This document shows, piece by piece, positions 4,643 through 57,309 of a stretch of 64,000 bases of DNA. The DNA comes from Heliocidaris erythrogramma (lineage: Eukaryota; Echinodermata; Echinoidea; Camarodonta; Echinometridae). A program made the position numbers and the translations under genes. The number at the start of each line of letters is the position of its first letter. Positions within the stretch are counted from its first letter, which is position 1. The notes beneath the pieces were generated by a model, which ran no database searches, was not told the origin of the DNA, and worked only from the letters and a program-made list of their open reading frames with translations. The stretch is from contig CM046863.1 in NCBI GenBank assembly GCA_025617745.1, positions 56,557,829 through 56,621,828 of the forward strand, written 5' to 3'.

Positions 4643-5415
4643 CTGCAAGAACAAGGATGATCATTCAATTACTGATGGCACATTACCTAGAAAACTCAGA
4701 AACGTTTGCGATGTGAAACTTTCGAGAATTGTAAACCACAGCCATTTCCACAGCAAGTAAATTTATTGATTTTTCCCCAAAAATAGTGTTATGTCGATTA
4801 TGATTCAATTACATGTATTTCGTGGCTTTAAACTTTTAGAAGTTGAAATATAGCCAGATTGATGCACATGGTGAATCTCTATTAAGGCATATAAAAAAGT
4901 GCCATATGATAAAAAATGGATTTAGGGCCTTTTGCAAGTAAGCTCTTCATATACTGACCCACAATAAAAAGTACCCACGACTTTATAATGGTATATCATA
5001 TTTATATTGACAGACATAGAATGACAATGAACCAGGGTGGAAGGATTGACCTTTTATTGAAACATTTCACTAATTTCGGAAGACAATGCTGTCTCTTGTC
5101 AGCGCGCATTACAGCGCAGAACACAACAAGTTGAAAAATGAAAGTCACAGATCACCCCTGGTGTTTGTGGATGGCAACATCCCTGCACAGCGGTATGTGG
5201 ACGATTGCTGCCGATTTCCTCTTTAAAAATTTTAGAGCCAAAGTTACCAATGTCTAAGGCTTTACATTGATACCTAATTTGGCAGCCCGTTGCTGCCCGT
5301 TTGTAAGCTAAACCCAATTTTCTACGCCCTTGTTTTATTTAAGCCTAAAGTGGAGCCACCCTGGCGGTGAAGACGCGCAAAGGCCACGTAGCTCTGGCGA
5401 AAATCTGGAGGCCAC

Positions 5416-6065: not shown

Positions 6066-6350
6066 GCCCTATGTCTGCGCACCTAAGATTTTGACCTGAA
6101 ATTCACAAGAATTTCTTTAATATTCCTCCAAAGCTTAATTTTATATTGTTCCTGATATTCTAAAGAGTAAGTTTGCAAAAATTCTAGCCAAAATTAGAAC
6201 AAGAACAATGGCATTTACACAAGAAACGGCGGCCGTGTCATTTCAACATTTAAAAAAATAATGGTGCCCATGTCTGCGCACTCATTCATTTTACACGCAG
6301 TTCGGGAGTTTTTACATGAACGACAACATTTTGAGGCTTGTGAATAAAAT
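6066..6350 (+). repeat. Dispersed repeat, copy A
   Basis: It matches 54148-54505 in the same direction: GTCTGCGCACCTAAG, CCTGATATTCTAAAGAGTAA, ACGCAGTTCGGGAGTTTTT and CATTTTGAGGCTTGTGAAT. The start GTCTGCGCAC also appears inverted near 7390, so the element may extend to about 7410 with a TTAA element inside it. Confidence 0.8.
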
Positions 6351-13393: not shown

Positions 13394-13744
13394 TTTAAAT
13401 ACCTTTCCAAAGTTAATAGAAGCTCAGTAAATGGCTACTTTGATATCAAAATACAATGATACATTGTGGATATGATAACATGTTGGCCAAATATCTGTCA
13501 GGTGCCCATTTTTTTTTTAGAGGGCCAAATAATGTAACACAAGTGATTTTTTATAGCATTAAACTATAGTGACATGACATATTTTCTCTCTAAAGATATG
13601 TTAAAATGTGTTCTACAAATCAAATCAATCAAGATTACATCATTTGGGGGCACCTGAAAGGGCATAGGATCCCTGAATCTTTTAATTCCGACCCAATTGA
13701 AAATGCATTAAAATTATATCACTGACTTCCATATGGAAACATAT
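13394..13744 (+). repeat. Host element interrupted by the 6.55-kb insertion, left part
   Basis: It matches 29050-29360: TGCTTTAAATACCTTTC, AATAGAAGCTCAGTAAATGG, ATTGTGGATATGATAACATG and ACTTCCATATGGAAACATAT. In the copy at 29350 the sequence continues ATTCTACGTGG without interruption; here it resumes only at 20299. Confidence 0.9.
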
Positions 13745-14319
13745 CGTCTGTTTGGAGCCAGAAGGGCGTTAACTCATTTTGGCGATTCCGAGATAATCGC
13801 GTTTAAAGATTTGGACGTGTATAAAAGCTAAAATAGCGATTTAAATGAATTTTTTTTAGGTTAACTGAAATAAACTACTAAAATGACTTGGCAACTGAAA
13901 TATCTTGCTGAAATGATTTGAATAATTCGTTTTAGGGCCAAAATAGTGTTAGCGCCCTTCTGGTTCGGAGAGAAATGGTGAATATTTTGCGGCCACAACG
14001 CCGCTAACGCGTTAACGCCCTTCTGGTTCAGAAACATTGTGGTGATTTTGCGCGCGCGCAAGGGCGTTAATACGTTATTTATACACGCTATACATTGGAA
14101 ATGCGCCGTATTCAGCCTTCTACTGCGTTGTCATGGCAATTTTCTGTGTCTGTTCAGTTATATTCTAGATTTAACAGTCATAATGCACAGAAATCAATTC
14201 CTTATAAAGAAATAAAACAATATTCAAGCTTCATTGGAATAAGATATTACACCATTTCTGATAACCATATCAATATTCCCCGCATCCATAATTCTTTTCA
14301 TTTAAGGGAAATTTAGCTT

Positions 14320-17150
14320 CTTCCATATGTATCATTCTGCTTAACCCATTTCTTAATATTCATTCACTATTCCCCCCCCCAAAAAAAAATAAACAACACA
14401 ACAAAACAACACTAAAACAAAACAAAAAACCCCCTCTCTCTCTCTTCCCCTCTATCTTTATCCTCGGGCTCTCTCTCTCTCTCTCACTCCCTCTCCACCC
14501 CTACCCCATCTCTATATTTGAGGTTATCTGTCTGTCTCTCCTTCTGTCCATTTCCCATGTTTTGTGCAAATGACAAAGTAATCACATTTAATAACCAGCA
14601 ATAGTTAGTCTAGTGCTGTACAAACATACACAGACACATCCTTCTCCATCACATAAGCCTAAAAATAAGTATTTAATAAAATTTCAAACAACCCAAATTC
14701 AATGTTTTAGATATCATGAAAGAAGTAATTAATCTGGTATTATAACGTTCACATGACGCTGTATATGTTTAATAAACACTCTTCAAATTGATGCTTTAAA
14801 AGACTGCCAAGAAATAAAATTAGATATACAATCATTTTTTTACATGAATATTTATATCAAGTGCAGTACCTGCTGAAAATATATGAAAGCATCTTAAATG
14901 TACATGCACATACAATTTACAAACTGAGCAATGACAATTCATGATGGCAGTTGTCTTTTACTTGAATTCATTCATAAGTGCTAACAATCTCAGTCTACAA
15001 TATTTGCAGAACAAATGAACTTGACATAGAATAGTACAATAATTTTCCGATAATTCAATTTGTGAATTCAGAATATCTTCACCTTAACAAAAATGTGTCT
15101 GTCATTTATATGCGCATCTATGCAATAATATGATGTACTGCTTGGCCTGGAAGTAAAACCTGTACAATCTGAAAGTACAATCTGAACTCATACTGTGCCA
15201 AGAGGTTTAGCTCTCTTAAAATTTTACCAAAATGTGATGTTACTTTTCAAATATCTGCACCTCATTAACCATCTATCATTTCAAAAAATAATGTGTACAA
15301 TACTTATAGTAAATTTATGACCATTTCTTATGATACCAAACATTATTACATTATCCAACTTTATGCATAACAATTATTAAAATTACTTTTGAGTTTCTTT
15401 TTTGGGTTTCTCATTTGTTCACTATTGTTTAATGTTGAAATAAGGTAATATCTTTTTAAAAATCTGCACTTTTTTCTGAAAAATTCTATGGTAGCATATA
15501 ATTATAATCATATATTTAGAGTGCTTAATTATGCTCAAAATTTTGATATACATTGACCACCATATACCTTTCCTGTGGTCAAGCAATTGGTGAATGAAAA
15601 TGACAAGTCTATCTGTCACATATACATGACATCGGCACTGAAAGAGTTAAACCATCAATAACTCAGATTTGAAGGTTTGTCACTTGCTTCCTTTTGTCGA
15701 AGTAGGGTAGAATAGCAAATTACATCACAATATCTTTAAAATAGCACTATCTTTCATTAAATATAAATGCTATTACATGGAGTAGGATAGTCTATTATAA
15801 TTTTAATATAAATAAATGGTAAATCTCTCAATATCAATTCAGGCTTTGAAGTACAATAAACTTCAACTTAAAAAGAAAACTGTCATTTTTAGTCATGTTG
15901 GATGCTGGAGTACATTGATGTATTTAATATCAAGAAGTTTTGAGTAAACACCATATGCATCTTTTTCTTTACCAATAAATAATGAATTGAACCCCCTCCC
16001 ATTAGCTTGGGGGGAAGAAGCTGCATATGTAGGCATCATTCATGTACAAAACAATCTAGGAATATTATTAATCTATCTTTAATTGGTCTTCTTTCTTGCC
16101 ATTTGCATTTCTTTCTCCTGTCTCTCATGTTTTTTCCAAAGATTGCGATTTCTGCATGCATCTTCTTGTTTCTGGTCATTGATCTAATAAAAAGGAGAGA
16201 GGGAGAGAAACAAGGAGAGCAAAAGAGTGAGTGAGTGTGTGTGAGAGAGAGAGAGGGGGAGGGGGGCATAGGGGAGGGAAAGAAAATAAGAACTTGTTTA
16301 TACAAAATATTAATTCCAACATATAATTATTTCATTTATTCAGCTCTTTTTGATACATTTAAACAAGAGGAATATACACTGTAGAACAACCCATTGCACT
16401 AAAACAGTAAAACAAAGCAAACAAAAATTAAATTAAAAAAAAAATAAACCAAAATTTTGAATAATTAGCTCTAGCTGGAAAACCATTTAGAATCAGTCTG
16501 AAAATAAAAACATAACTGAAATGAAAAGAAAATACAGATTAAGCCAGTCCATAAAAGGAATATTTGTGAAAAGATTAACATGAATCATTTCAGATATCCA
16601 GTGAAATGAAGTCCATGCAATGTTAGAACATGATCTTTGCTTTAATTGTATGGTTATCATTCTTCATTCCCGAATGCTGTAACTGCTTCAAATAAAATTA
16701 AATCCTGCCATACCTTAAATACCTTCACTGATGTAAAAGGTACTGGTGATTCTGACAGCCTCTTGAGTATTACGTCCTAATCCCAGATGCTAAGCTTGCT
16801 TCTCTGATTTCATCAAACAGTCGGGGTCTATTAACAAGTTACAATTAAGAGGCATGCATTGTTTATATTTCAGCCATTAGTTATTAATTTGAAAGGAAAG
16901 TTTATCTATCAATCAACACAATCTATTTTTTTTTCATGTATTATTTTACACACAAAAAAAAATGAAAATTTATTCATCATCCATGATTCTACACGTAACT
17001 TAAAATATCCAGAAACAAATCCTGGAATCATTCAAACAGATGGCTTTCACTTTTTGTCAGCCTCTTCAGTTTCTTGTGTTATGGATGTTCTTTCAGAAAA
17101 ATGAGAAAAACAAAGTGATATCCACCTCTCATCTAGAATGATCTCACTCA
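14320..17150. other. AT-rich interior of the 6.55-kb element, no gene recognised
   Basis: No exon with good borders was seen. It holds a CT tract at 14430-14490, a GAGA/GTGT tract at 16195-16275, several poly-A and poly-T runs, and otherwise unremarkable intron-like sequence. Confidence 0.6.
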
Positions 17151-17217
17151 TTTACAATGATGGAAATTATTTTAACTTTATTACAACCACTACATGGATG
17201 TAATATAATGAACATAC

Positions 17218-17326
17218 CTCTATTTCTTGTGATTATATTATGTCTCTGTTGCTGGAGTAATAGACAGTTCAATCGGTTCATCATAGCCAAAGGGGTTTGA
17301 TCAAGTCCCATGTGAGAAACCAGTGC
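17218..17326 (-). CDS. Candidate exon of an unidentified gene, inside the 6.55-kb element
   Basis: This 109-bp minus-strand segment has a good acceptor (GTGTATTTCCAG above 17326) and a good donor (GTATGT at 17212-17217). Only the phase-0 frame is open across it, reading ALVSHMGLDQTPLAMMNRL, then NCLLLQQQRHNIITRNR. It looks helical and protein-like, unlike the low-complexity frames nearby. The family was not recognised. It would follow exon 18851-18933, which exits in phase 0. A downstream acceptor near 17085 would give a stop within three codons. It may be a captured host gene fragment or cargo of the element. Composition and splice signals support an exon; nothing here shows expression. Confidence 0.5.
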
Positions 17327-18209
17327 CTGGAAATACACACATATATGGCATTATCACATATTCATATTTGGTATATAAATTCACAAAATAAAAATGTTCT
17401 CTTGTACAAGTGTGTTTGATGAAAAAGATGTACCCCAAACAAAATTAAATAAGAAAGATTCTTTAAGTGCCTAGTAGCATGCAAGTGCTTGTCAATTGAA
17501 ATTGCATAAAGGACTTTCCATATTTTTACTTTCACCATAATGTATCTACTAGTGGTACTAGTGATAGGTAATCATAATTCATATTCATTCAAAAATTCAT
17601 ATTTCAACTGATTTATTTAATGAGACTAATAAAAAACACATCAAATATATTTTTTTGTAAGAAAATTGCATAATTTTGTATCTATTACACTAAAAAATGT
17701 TTTCAACAGTTTGGGATTAGTCCTAATTCAAAGACCCCATAAAAAGTGTATAAAATGAATTTGCATTAAGCTCTATAAAATGACTGAAGCAGCAGTCTAC
17801 AAGGAAATGGCTAGAGTAAAATCATATTTTTGTTGCATTATGTCACAGATCCTCTTAAACTAATTGAAGCAGAGACTTTGTTGCTCGGGTAGTTTGTTCT
17901 GAAGAACAGCTATGCGTTCAAGAGTTCTGTCTGCCACCATTCACTCAAACTTCAACCAGCTAATATTTGGCATCAATTTTCTTTGACTAAAACCTTTACA
18001 GGCAACATAGTATTGACAATAATGATTTCACGAGAATGATAATAGCATACAATGCAATCTTCTACAATGTACTTCATCTATAAAATGCAACTGATTTTTT
18101 TTTTAAACATTGACAAAGCCTCCAATTTTCAGTGCATTCTAGCTGAAACATTCCAAACCCATGGTCATCCTGAGTGGTAAGCAATCATTCAATACAAATA
18201 TTTCCAACA

Positions 18210-18237
18210 GTGTATATATATATATATATATATATAT
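18210..18237. repeat. (TA)n microsatellite
   Basis: An uninterrupted TA run inside the 6.55-kb element. Confidence 0.95.
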
Positions 18238-18384
18238 TACTGAAAATTACATGTATATAGTACCCTATACTATTATCTGATCCTAGCTTACAGATGTAGT
18301 TTGATAAAGACTACACTACTGAAATTTACCTCAAAGCTCCTGCAGTAGTGTTACGTCCTCAGAATCATCTAATGAAGTCTACTG

Positions 18385-18846
18385 GGCAATTCCAAGGTCA
18401 CGGAATGACATTCAGAGACACATTTTACCAACTTCAAACCAAAACTACAATTTCTTTTATAATGGTAGAACATTTCAAATATCAGAGATGTATGATTAGA
18501 TCAACTATTGCCAAGCAGTCATGAAATTTGCATACTACTGAGGTTGGTAACGGAAGGCCATTAATAATATCTTGATTTTCTTCCTTTACCGACCTCATTA
18601 ATCCGGTGACTACTAATTCCTATAGGCTTTATACAAGGCCATCCGGTTCCTGTAGACAATGGGTTAATATGTAAATTTCATTACTGCTTGGCAATAACAT
18701 TTTTGTATTGAAAATCAAGGCAGTTGATCTAATCTTACATCTCTGATGTTTGAATTGTTCTACCATTATAAACCAAAAAATTGAAGTTATGGTTTGAAGA
18801 TGGTATGTGTCTCTGAATGTCCTTCCGTTACAGTGCAATTGCCCTA
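18385..18846. repeat. Imperfect ~150-bp inverted repeat (long hairpin)
   Basis: Left arm 18385-18535 pairs with right arm about 18670-18846: GACATTCAGAGACACAT, AATGGTAGAACA, ATCAGAGATGTA, GATTAGATCAACT and TTGCCAAGCAGT recur inverted. A smaller inverted pair (GAGGTTGGTAACGGAAGG) sits in the spacer. Both arms, each read on its own strand, keep a similar open stretch (TFRDT..LQT and IMVE.FK.QRC), so the arms may derive from coding sequence. Confidence 0.75.
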
Positions 18847-18850
18847 TTAC

Positions 18851-18933
18851 GGTGGCAAGCCAATAATAACACTGTATCGAGCACTCCCTGCCAACTCCAC
18901 CACCACATCTGTGTCTGGATCCAGCATCTTGCA
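18851..18933 (-). CDS. Candidate exon of an unidentified gene, inside the 6.55-kb element
   Basis: This 83-bp minus-strand segment has an acceptor ATTTTGTGTAG above 18933 and a weaker donor GTAATA at 18845-18850. Entering in phase 1 it reads QDAGSRHRCGGGVGRECS, then IQCYYWLAT, and exits in phase 0, matching the only open frame of exon 17218-17326. A phase-0 reading, KMLDPDTDVVVELAGSARYS, is also open but ends in TAA just past the exon. The alternatives cannot be separated from sequence alone. Family not recognised. Confidence 0.35.
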
Positions 18934-19484
18934 CTACACAAAATAAAATAACAGTTAACATGGGAATGATATGCCAGTCAGTGCATAATATTGGAATTTT
19001 ATCAAATTTATGTTGACTTTATTCTTAATTTATGTAATCACAACTTTGCATTTAAAAGTGTGGTGTTTGAAACAATAAAAAAGCCCAGACCTTTGTAAAA
19101 CACTGTGAAACATTGTGATTATTTTCAACTCAGTAAATACTATTAATTATTACCGGTAATAGCCCCACTCCTCACCTTTGATAATGTTGAATACTGTTAA
19201 ACCACACATTTTCTTAGTCATGGGCAAGACTCCTTTTTATTATTGATAACAAATACTTTAGATCTTCCAGTCAGCATCTAAACTGATCAAGGGACAGAGT
19301 TATTACTCATAGTCATTACCCTTTTTATGCACATACCAACAAGCAAGTAGTTACAAGGTTTAATTCCTTGGAACTTATACTAGAATCTGCTATGTTTCAT
19401 TGTCCTATTTGTAGAATAAGAATAGGTAGACCATAGATCTGACATTAGATCAAAGACTTTAGTAGCTCCAGGTATACAACTTAC

Positions 19485-19503
19485 CAAAATCTTCTTCGCC
19501 CAT
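19485..19503 (-). CDS. Candidate first coding exon, inside the 6.55-kb element
   Basis: GCCATGG, a good initiation context, opens MGEEDF and is cut after one base of the next codon by a strong donor GTAAGT (19479-19484). It would join exon 18851-18933 in phase 1. An upstream ATG (19506-19508) in another frame gives MPWAKKIL. A similar sequence lies inverted at 19708-19750, so this start region is one arm of an inverted repeat. Confidence 0.35.
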
Positions 19504-19750
19504 GGCATTAGTCTGGTCGGTCGCCAAGGCAAGCCAATCGAGTCATTTGAATCTACGGTACAGTACGGGGGAACATCGGCTCGGTGAGGAAATTTCATTT
19601 GTTTCATCAAAATAATCATCAAAACGTGAAATCAAAGTGCCTGCTGGATAGTTACAGTTATTCTCTTGAAATGTAAGTACAAATTTCCATCTTACCTGCC
19701 GAAATTAAGCGATGCGACCGACCAAACTAATGGGCGAGGAAGACTTTTGT
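19485..19750. repeat. Inverted copies of a putative exon-1 region
   Basis: On the minus strand, 19485-19525 reads GCGACCGACCAGACTAATG..GGGCGAAGAAGATTTTG. The plus strand at 19714-19747 reads GCGACCGACCAAACTAAT, then GGGCGAGGAAGACTTTTG. About 190 bases separate them. Confidence 0.75.
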
Positions 19751-20298
19751 TGTTGTCCTACCTGGTGTTAACGTTTGCACGTATTTGTATACACTAACAC
19801 AAATATCAATACGTGGGGCAGTGTTAGAGAACTTTTGCACATTACGCCGTTACAAATGAAGGAGGAATTTATATTCATGCGATATACCTCCCTTTATACA
19901 CACAGAAATTATGAAAAACATTATAATTGATAAAATTTGTATTTGAAACTTACCATAATGAGGGATTCTACCAGTTCTGGCCGATTCTTGCTTGGTTAAC
20001 GCCCTCCGTGCCGTACGGGATGGAGGAAAACGCATCGTACCAGAAGGGCGTTAACGCAATTTCGAGGGTTAGCGCCCTTTTGGCCCGTAATAACCCTACT
20101 TTACGCCCTTCTGGTTCGAAATCATAATAATCATAACTGTTAACGCCCTTTTGTTTTTGGAATATATAGTTAGATATATATATGATCCTGCTACATAATA
20201 TATATCATTAGAAAGAGCAGAACGAGATCTACAAGATGATACCAATAACTCCATAACCCCAAAAATCGAGTTAACGCCCTTCTGGCTCCAAACAGACG

Positions 20299-20345
20299 AT
20301 ATATTCTACGTGATATGCCGATGTTATTGGTGATAGTCATGTATG
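20299..20345 (+). repeat. Host element resumes after the 6.55-kb insertion
   Basis: ATATATTCTACGTG.TATGC, then ATGTTATTGGTGATAGTCAT, matches 29355-29400 and continues the block broken at 13744. Confidence 0.85.
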
Positions 20346-29049: not shown

Positions 29050-29632
29050 GGGTGCTTTAAATACCTTTCTCAAGTTAATAGAAGCTCAGTAAATGGCTAC
29101 TTTAATATCAAAATGCAACGATACATTGTGGATATGATAACATGTTGGCCAAATGTCTGAAAGGTACTCAATTTTTTTATTTTAGAGTGCCAAATAATGT
29201 AACACATGTGATTATATAGCATAAAACTATAGTGGCATGACATATTTTCTTTCTAAAGATATTTGAAAATATCCCTGAATCCCTGAATATATTGATTGCC
29301 GCCCAATTGAAAATGCATTAAAAATCATATATATCACTGACTTCCATATGGAAACATATATTCTACGTGGTATGCAAATGTTATTGGTGATAGTCATGCA
29401 TGATAATTTTAATAATTTCTAATGGTACTAACAGAAAAGCGATAAAACGATATCCTCTATGAATGCTGTATAGTAGGATGTTAAAAAGAGCTTACACTCA
29501 ATATAGGCCCTTCTCACTCCCCAGAAATGTGTGTTTTAGACTTTTAGTTTAGCGTTCAAATTTACGTTAATTTAAAATGAATCAAGGTAGATACAATGAA
29601 AAGGAAGAGCGTAAAACTACCAAACATCAGGG
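29050..29632 (+). repeat. Uninterrupted copy of the host element plus truncated palindrome arm
   Basis: 29050-29400 matches 13394-13744 joined to 20299-20345, giving the empty site of the 6.55-kb element. 29405-29632 matches the right arm 21905-22125 (CTATGAATGCTGTATAGTAG, CCCAGAAATGTGTGTTTTAG). Confidence 0.9.
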
Positions 29633-41399: not shown

Positions 41400-43400
41400 T
41401 TTAAATAGTATCAAGACAGATTACTCTGACTCTACCTTTTTCAAGTCTGATGTTTGCACAAGAAAAAGGATGGATAGTTAAAAAAACATTTCTTGAACCT
41501 TTTTTGTCAATAAATGCCGATATGAATCCCTTGGATCATGCCTGCTTTTTGACAGAGTCATCTGCCATAGGGTTAACACGTGAAAACATGGATTTTAAAA
41601 ATGATTATAGTTCCTCTAGTATTACCTTGAATTTAGTGCAAATGTGGCTTACATGTAATTTGAGACTCTGAAAAGGCTTAATGAAGGCTCAAAAGGTGCA
41701 AGGGACCCCGCATAAATCCCCGGGAATATGCATGCTTTTGGCCTTCCATCTCCCATAGGAGGGGGGGGGGGGGGGGGGGGGGGGGGGTTAGTGGCAAATT
41801 TTTTTCATCTCGCCAGCCCTCCGAAAGTCGCTCAGTGAAGGGGTGTAGGGTATCAGATATTATTAGTCCAGTTTTCCTCCATAATTCTCTGACAAGCCAA
41901 AAGAGTTATCAGTTCTAAAAGGGCAATACAATTTTATTTAAAAGCCTCCTAAATCCGCCACTGATCCATGCCCGGACTGTGAGGTCAGTCTTGCGAGGTG
42001 GGCCTTTTTACAACTTTTTCTCGGAGGGTTAATAGAACGACATTGTTAGGCTCTTGGGCTTCCAAACTAAATTTGGTGCTCGATCCGGGTTTTTTCACAA
42101 TTTAGGCAAGATCCCGTATATGCCAACTTGGGTTGGCATATACGGATGTATGTGAAGAATATAATTGCATAGTGTTGGTGGTCGATCTCATTAAATTGAA
42201 AGATTGGGGGGGGGGGAGCAATAAGAGATCATTTTTATTTTATTTTCTTTTTGTTCCAATTGCTTTATTTTTACTGTTTGTTTTTGTTGGGTTTTTTTTT
42301 TTTTTTTTTTGCTCAGTGATTTTTTTAAAATCATTTCAATCACTTGTAATTGTTGTAATTTCTGTTGATTTCGTAATAAAAACACAAATTAAAAAAATAA
42401 GAGATCATTATTTTTTCCTCAATTCTATTGGAGTCATTTTTACAGATCTGTTGTAAGAGAGAAAAGAGAGTATGAGAAAAATGAGGGGGGGGGGGAGACA
42501 AAGAGAGATGGGGCAAAAGTAATGGGATATTCCTACAAAGACAGAATAGGATTGGTAATAATTAAATTATATCATCAGCTGCTATATTTTTGGTTACTAG
42601 TTAATTCAATTCAAAACACGGAGGCCATCCCCCTTTTCGTACAATCGGTAAAGGCCCTATTGCGTTCGTGATGGCTTCGGAGCAAGCCCCTACTATTTTC
42701 TTAGCCTGTCGTCTCACATTTCTACAGCAGAATAATATTACAAATAACTTACCGTATATTTGGTTATATTGGTGGCGTATCCAGGGATGCAAGGAGAGGG
42801 GAAGGCTCACGCCTGACAAAAAAAATCGTCAGATGCATTCTATTTTGAAAAATTAGGACAAGCAAGGAAAAAATGTATCAGTATCCAGATTCTTTCTGTG
42901 GGAGGGGGGGGGGGGGTACACATTTCCTTTCATTTGATGTGTAACTAAGATATGTCAGATTTGGTTTTGGCTGGCACATAGGGGCACGTACATTCCTGGA
43001 TATATAATCTTGGATACGCCACTCGCAAGCGCACATCGATCTTTACAATCGCGCACACAGAAAATCGGGACTTTTCCGTGTATGCCACAGGGACCGAATT
43101 TTTAAGGACAAAACTCTTTTGGGGAGATGTCAGCGCCCGCGGCGACCAGGAAATGTACACATTGACTCCGATAGCTCGTTTCGCGGGAATCAACAGTAAA
43201 TTACGGATTTGATTTTTGGAAATATCTTTTCCAACATCGGTGAGTTGAATTTATTGTATTTCTTGGATATTTTGTGGTCGGTTTTTGTAAATTAAATGCC
43301 GATTTTGAGTGAATGTTTGTGACTTTTGTGCAGTGGTGTTTTAAAAAGTTGAGGTGTATGACTGCCTCCATTATACACACGAAGTAGGCCTATAGGAATG
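41400..43400. other. Unassigned stretch with poly-G and poly-T runs
   Basis: No gene recognised. Contains poly-G runs at 41760-41787, 42207-42215 and 42902-42916, and the fragment CTCGCCAGCCCTCCGAAA near 41809 that recurs at 61212. Confidence 0.5.
42114..42145. other. Perfect 14-bp hairpin with 4-base loop
   Basis: CCGTATATGCCAAC, TTGG, GTTGGCATATACGG. Probably the collapsed end of a palindromic element; no transcription context is seen. Confidence 0.85.
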
Positions 43401-43431
43401 TAGCTATGAGTGCTATCCACATGAAATCAAT

Positions 43432-56796: not shown

Positions 56797-57296
56797 NNNN
56801 NNNNNNNNNNNNNNNNNNNNNNNNNNNNNNNNNNNNNNNNNNNNNNNNNNNNNNNNNNNNNNNNNNNNNNNNNNNNNNNNNNNNNNNNNNNNNNNNNNNN
56901 NNNNNNNNNNNNNNNNNNNNNNNNNNNNNNNNNNNNNNNNNNNNNNNNNNNNNNNNNNNNNNNNNNNNNNNNNNNNNNNNNNNNNNNNNNNNNNNNNNNN
57001 NNNNNNNNNNNNNNNNNNNNNNNNNNNNNNNNNNNNNNNNNNNNNNNNNNNNNNNNNNNNNNNNNNNNNNNNNNNNNNNNNNNNNNNNNNNNNNNNNNNN
57101 NNNNNNNNNNNNNNNNNNNNNNNNNNNNNNNNNNNNNNNNNNNNNNNNNNNNNNNNNNNNNNNNNNNNNNNNNNNNNNNNNNNNNNNNNNNNNNNNNNNN
57201 NNNNNNNNNNNNNNNNNNNNNNNNNNNNNNNNNNNNNNNNNNNNNNNNNNNNNNNNNNNNNNNNNNNNNNNNNNNNNNNNNNNNNNNNNNNNNNNN
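56797..57296. other. Assembly gap, 500 N
   Basis: Exactly 500 undetermined bases, directly followed by a G run. The round number suggests a nominal gap size. Any reading frame across it is meaningless. Confidence 1.
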
Positions 57297-57309
57297 GGGG
57301 GGGGGGGGG

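Follow-up and report, generated by a model that had tools for sequence, protein, structure and literature searches.

A deleted copy of a young, probably non-autonomous TIR transposon family with an unusual ancestry in Heliocidaris erythrogramma

Introduction

MITEs and non-autonomous families of transposons with terminal inverted repeats (TIRs) have ends that are common to many places, and MITEs are far shorter than ~7 kb. Two other described systems are close to the element considered here. Sola2 elements generate a 4-bp target-site duplication (TSD) of the form AWWT, which includes ATAT, AAAT and ATTT (PMC3627910). In animal Pack-TIRs, the criterion for capture is a parental copy that is not associated with a transposable element (TE), and that study reports four multicopy cases in reference genomes together with one family in fly populations, an example of 291 bp at three places (its section 7), and a scan of 100 animal genomes which, by its own statement, may miss captures made by end-bypass (PMC8277862). 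In the literature on Sola elements, 4-bp TSDs and Pack-TIRs we found no description of the ends reported below, by a text search that is blind to end sequences.

Herein we analyze an element within a 64,000-nucleotide stretch of DNA from Heliocidaris erythrogramma (the window), which a preliminary description had presented as a Pack-type transposon carrying captured, spliced exons. The finding of splice-like signals within a young transposon does not by itself amount to gene capture, as this case shows, and a recently active family offers many comparable copies.

Results and Discussion

The insertion and its family

The stretch from 13745 to 20298 is a real insertion of a DNA transposon, because it has matching ends, 4-bp duplications and an empty paralog (Table 1). 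The perfect 31-bp inverted ends that had been claimed are there, with mismatches beyond 31 bp, as are the ATAT duplication and the uninterrupted copy of the target that had been placed at ~29350. When the flanks are joined with a single ATAT the alignment runs across the junction to window positions 29279-29412, and this empty site lies in a diverged paralogous repeat within the window. A search of the whole assembly with a 28-bp pattern of the end, allowing up to three mismatches, gave 3,414 + 3,326 matches, far above chance, and the reversed control gave 0. Inverted ends, a TSD with its empty site, and multiple dispersed copies, all of which are found here, are the marks of a TIR (class II) transposon.

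Table 1. Features of the element, its flanks and its empty site (window coordinates)
Feature	Position	Strand	Basis or remark
Left TSD, ATAT	13741..13744		Alignment of flanks and TSD comparison among copies
Left TIR, 31 bp, perfect	13745..13775	+	End comparison; 28-bp part has ~6,740 matches genome-wide
Blocks of homology to the old relatives on C2 (mostly 72-80% where sequences were compared)	13745..19424	+	Right edge ~19424, from L049 position 101
Subterminal repeat, one mismatch to GTTAACGCCCTTCTGG	13948..13963	+	Motif search
Subterminal repeat, exact GTTAACGCCCTTCTGG	14011..14026	+	Motif search
Junction of ~410-bp deletion (~14229)	14225..14230		Only in the window copy among copies compared
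Fourth candidate exon	16079..16183	-	Splice-like signals; coding not supported
Candidate exon 3, phase 0	17218..17326	-	Splice-like signals; coding not supported
Foldback repeat, 461 bp	18384..18844		Inside the element
Candidate exon 2	18851..18933	-	Splice-like signals, 3' edge read by eye; predicted donor abuts foldback repeat
Right part of element	19425..20298	+	Tested parts not found at C2 cluster
Candidate exon 1 (MGEEDF), ends in phase 1	19485..19503	-	Splice-like signals; past edge of C2-related block
Stretch directly upstream of candidate exon 1	19520..19631	-	Matched outside family
Subterminal repeat, exact GTTAACGCCCTTCTGG	20040..20055	-	Motif search
Three diverged subterminal repeats (at 20068, 20099, 20139)	20068..20154	+	Motif search
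Right TIR, 31 bp, perfect	20268..20298	-	End comparison
Right TSD, ATAT	20299..20302		Alignment of flanks and TSD comparison among copies
Empty-site target ATAT, uninterrupted paralogous copy	29356..29359	+	Aligned to joined flanks

The window element is one member of a multicopy family and not a single event. Copies were sought in the host assembly (1.06 Gb), and end places were listed by hand from left-end and right-end searches; these lists omit the C2 cluster discussed below, second pieces and weak matches, and some of the matches that they include are partial. The dispersed places so listed number 46 for the left end and 43 for the right, and 38 of the 46 pair with a right end inside 45 kb, two of these pairs being distant relatives, so that the other copies with the same ends that the preliminary description had suggested looking for do exist. 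The paired ends are spaced 6.3-10.4 kb apart in 31 of the 38 pairs, the usual family member being ~7 kb long, and the remaining seven (4.3, 11.2, 13.4, 15.3, 22.2, 23.0 and 38.0 kb) may be nested or false, with the 4.3-kb pair (C4) and the 13.4-kb pair (C1) perhaps being distant relatives. With the left 501 bp as query, all of the best 40 of 75 candidates gave identities of 95-100%, in most cases across bases 1-485; with the right 699 bp, at least 27 of the best 40 of 1,330 candidates matched at 93-100% across 696 bases or more, the window being included in both cases. The long matches to a 5.5-kb interior query are places of the same family (best 26 of 4,277 candidates).

For closer comparison a set of 24 sequences was used, consisting of the window and 23 loci. 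Both ends were found in 17 of them, 16 of which have identical 4-bp TSDs (ATAT in nine including the window, AAAT in two, ATTT in two, and ATAA, ACTG and ATGT in one each); the sole two-ended copy without a perfect TSD, L042, has an altered right end. Mean pairwise divergence is 1.9% (range 0.14-2.6%) among 17 aligned copies out of 20, the three with cut right ends being excluded, and two copies, L031 and L032, are 99.9% alike at separate sites with distinct TSDs. The family is young and has been recently active.

The duplications resemble those of Sola2, with 13 of the 16 perfect TSDs being ATAT, AAAT or ATTT while ATAA, ACTG and ATGT deviate, and likeness to that superfamily rests on the TSDs. 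The TIRs differ, in that those given for Sola2 in the source consulted are 12-21 bp long (PMC3627910) whereas here there are 31 bp and subterminal repeats, and no Sola2 transposase was found within the family. Like MITEs, the family has ends that recur thousands of times in the genome, some of them as head-to-head pairs within 76 bp, but at ~7 kb it is unlike them in size. Among the first 100 end places listed there are seven exact head-to-head pairs of the 28-bp end; the pair at C1:8205800-8205875 and those at six similar places each form a very small palindromic element.

The window copy itself is a deleted family member. Its ~410-bp deletion is accompanied by the absence of ~107 bp near 17097, a segment that is present in most other copies and is also missing from L026, while the foldback repeat is missing in the sister copies L039 and L040 save for its first few bases. 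Copies of GTTAACGCCCTTCTGG, absent from the preliminary description, lie subterminally at both ends of the element; that description had likewise passed over the foldback repeat and the ~410-bp deletion.

Proposed mobilization in trans

Our preferred explanation, held with considerable confidence, is that this copy, itself carrying deletions, belongs to a young, non-autonomous TIR family of many copies that was moved in trans and has a noncoding interior. A transposase encoded elsewhere would mobilize the family, and insertion would leave 4-bp duplications, most often ATAT. Both the lack of autonomy and the movement in trans are likely, since there is no recognized gene inside the element and the same 28-bp end is present at thousands of places; that end is far commoner than the ~7-kb family itself. 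The claim that the element holds no recognized transposase stands, in that no Pfam match was above chance, a result that is also compatible with a transposase gene that is decayed or unlisted. At C1:66357139-66370544 lies a 13.4-kb element whose two ends are related to those of the family (77% and 73% at the residue level), and among the matches listed it has none to candidate exons 3 and 4, to the left 98-aa ORF or to the C2 probe. With related ends and no interior match listed, it indicates that ends and interior are separable, and we regard it as a candidate for the autonomous partner. The family is real, young and otherwise ordinary, and it is its ancestry that is unusual.

Relatives of the interior and the question of one-ended capture

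Relatives of the interior from outside the family, obtained with L046, a locus on contig C2, as query, form ~11 groups that all lie at C2:50.79-53.58 Mb, an interval of 2.8 Mb (best 40 of 1,228 candidates). Their similarity to the family is mostly 72-80%. An unrooted tree built from a single block places five C2 loci and 25 family sequences on opposite sides of a branch with full support, L045 having a long branch. The interval, which contains L045-L051, may have arisen by segmental duplication or may be poor in recombination. Among the matches listed no interior relative of C2-like divergence was seen elsewhere. A 65-bp block at element positions 3218-3282 of L022 (window ~16530-16600) is 85-89% identical to the C2 loci, in surroundings that are mostly 72-80%.

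The two ends of the element are represented differently in this cluster. In a residue-level query with the left 237 bp (79 residues), the matches at eight C2 places run at least as far as residue 74 and so enter the TIR, and one of these places matches the whole left-end query at 71%. The right-end query gave 54 matches, none of them at the C2 relative loci, and the sole one inside the cluster interval (C2 52833473) is the family copy L028. Homology in L049 ends at about element position 6207, and a 135-bp probe laid over this right edge gave nine matches, all on C2 within 50.79-53.58 Mb, eight of which (query included) extend past the edge while the ninth covers residues 93-135 of the probe only. 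L051 supplies the one left flank compared near the end itself; homology there can be followed as far as element position 162 and takes in a degraded subterminal repeat, and the next 225 bases yielded no TIR. A left homology edge at element position 847 was considered and rejected, a dispersed repeat being present there; L050:393-900 is such a repeat, LTR-retrotransposon-like and within a C2 locus, the first 202 bp of which recur ~5.36 kb downstream.

The C2 relatives may thus be truncated old copies of the element, or else a one-ended capture may have started from them. In the second case, which we regard as possible yet rather unlikely, an old left end at C2 together with a foreign right end would have moved up to ~6 kb of C2 DNA by end-bypass, and the composite would then have multiplied to dozens of sites. 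The confinement of the interior's non-family relatives to ~11 loci of one interval (among the matches listed) and the match of eight of these places to the left end with 0 of 54 right-end matches would both follow from such an event, but the same pattern would be seen if local duplication had followed the loss of the right end from an old complete element. Beyond the homology edge the C2 loci continue into sequence that is matched only in that cluster, and the 13.4-kb C1 element shows ends and interior uncoupled; on the other hand, the C2 loci are ~25% different from the family, which leaves no known direct donor, the homology in L051 stops short of a TIR, and the block tree that separates the C2 loci from the family has no root. 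Were C2 the donor, then one genome would hold the donor cluster, the element and the foreign right end together, and end-bypass would become directly testable; a true one-ended capture would also be on a scale far beyond the 291-bp, three-place example in the section cited above (PMC8277862).

The candidate exons

The family shares with Pack-TIRs a TIR element with a long interior that lacks a known transposase, and copies with distinct TSDs. It differs in that the C2 relatives match the left end whereas the Pack-TIR source asks for a TE-free parental copy, and in its scale, its interior being several kilobases long and its copies numbering dozens, against 291 bp at three places in the example from that source (PMC8277862). 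Of the flanking features of a Pack-TIR, the left end is matched at C2 and the right end is unmatched there. A search for the parent gene, as had been suggested, yielded no transposon-free parent among the matches listed, eight C2 places matching the left end; no clean parent locus is known, because the left end of the element is present among the other relatives that were recovered, and clean Pack-type capture was rejected on the same ground. A maintained exon frame, which the preliminary description had claimed and which is not required of Pack-TIRs, was likewise not found.

The three minus-strand segments do have splice-like signals and compatible phases (1, then 0) in the window copy, as had been described; their status as exons is not supported, the frames being broken in many copies. 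Indels break the frame of exon 3 in 10 of the 24 copies. The exon is open in the other 14 and its AG and GT are retained in 23, two figures that at 2% divergence carry little weight either way. Four of the 24 (L022, L031, L032 and L038) have lost the donor of exon 1. In the C2 relatives compared (L045-L049, four of them aligned), exon 3 is interrupted by a stop or a frameshift in five of five; the two relatives that extend across the exon 2 region, L046 and L049, lack exon 2, positions 4773 and 5862 (L022 numbering) being adjacent in them; and exon 1 lies outside the block that the element shares with the C2 relatives. Directly upstream of exon 1, ~19520-19631 has matches outside the family at 35-71% at the amino acid level (best 150 of 494 candidates).

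Searches of the joined candidate exons and nine ORFs against Pfam gave a best E value of 0.035, and all matches (E 0.035-0.29), being below the curated cut-offs, were taken as chance. The same applies to a single PDB match (E 1.5) and to three Rfam matches (E 0.55-0.85, below gathering scores). The longest stop-to-stop frame among six copies listed is 137 aa. The minus-strand segments are therefore not supported as protein-coding exons, given their broken frames, the absence of exon 2, the position of exon 1 outside the shared block and the lack of a Pfam or PDB match, although a noncoding spliced transcript from them is possible. The capture of an intron-bearing gene, as originally claimed, is not supported, given the broken frames in sister copies and older relatives and the lack of a protein family match. 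Accommodating the splice signals and phases by capture of an intron-bearing coding fragment from a transposon-free parent is very improbable in our judgement: no parent without an element end is among the matches listed, exon frames are not kept, and exon 1 is outside the C2-related block.

The interior could instead be a decayed, intron-bearing transposase gene of an autonomous ancestor, which would be consistent with its presence in both the family and the C2 loci and with splice-like signals that are all on one strand. We nevertheless consider this doubtful, in view of the Pfam result, the short longest frame, and the broken exon 3 and missing exon 2 in the C2 relatives. As part of the favored explanation, movement of a non-autonomous family in trans, we hold it probable that the interior is a noncoding passenger common to the whole family.

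Further variation was seen near the right end of the copies. In three sister copies (L021, L023 and L027) a common repeat of ~650-700 bp is inserted at about 5.9-6.0 kb of the element, in window-copy coordinates; its orientation varies and its exact site differs slightly among them, and part of this repeat is also present at window 43023-43412. A different insert lies near these sites in L038. Elsewhere in the window, ~56800-57300 consists of 500 N.
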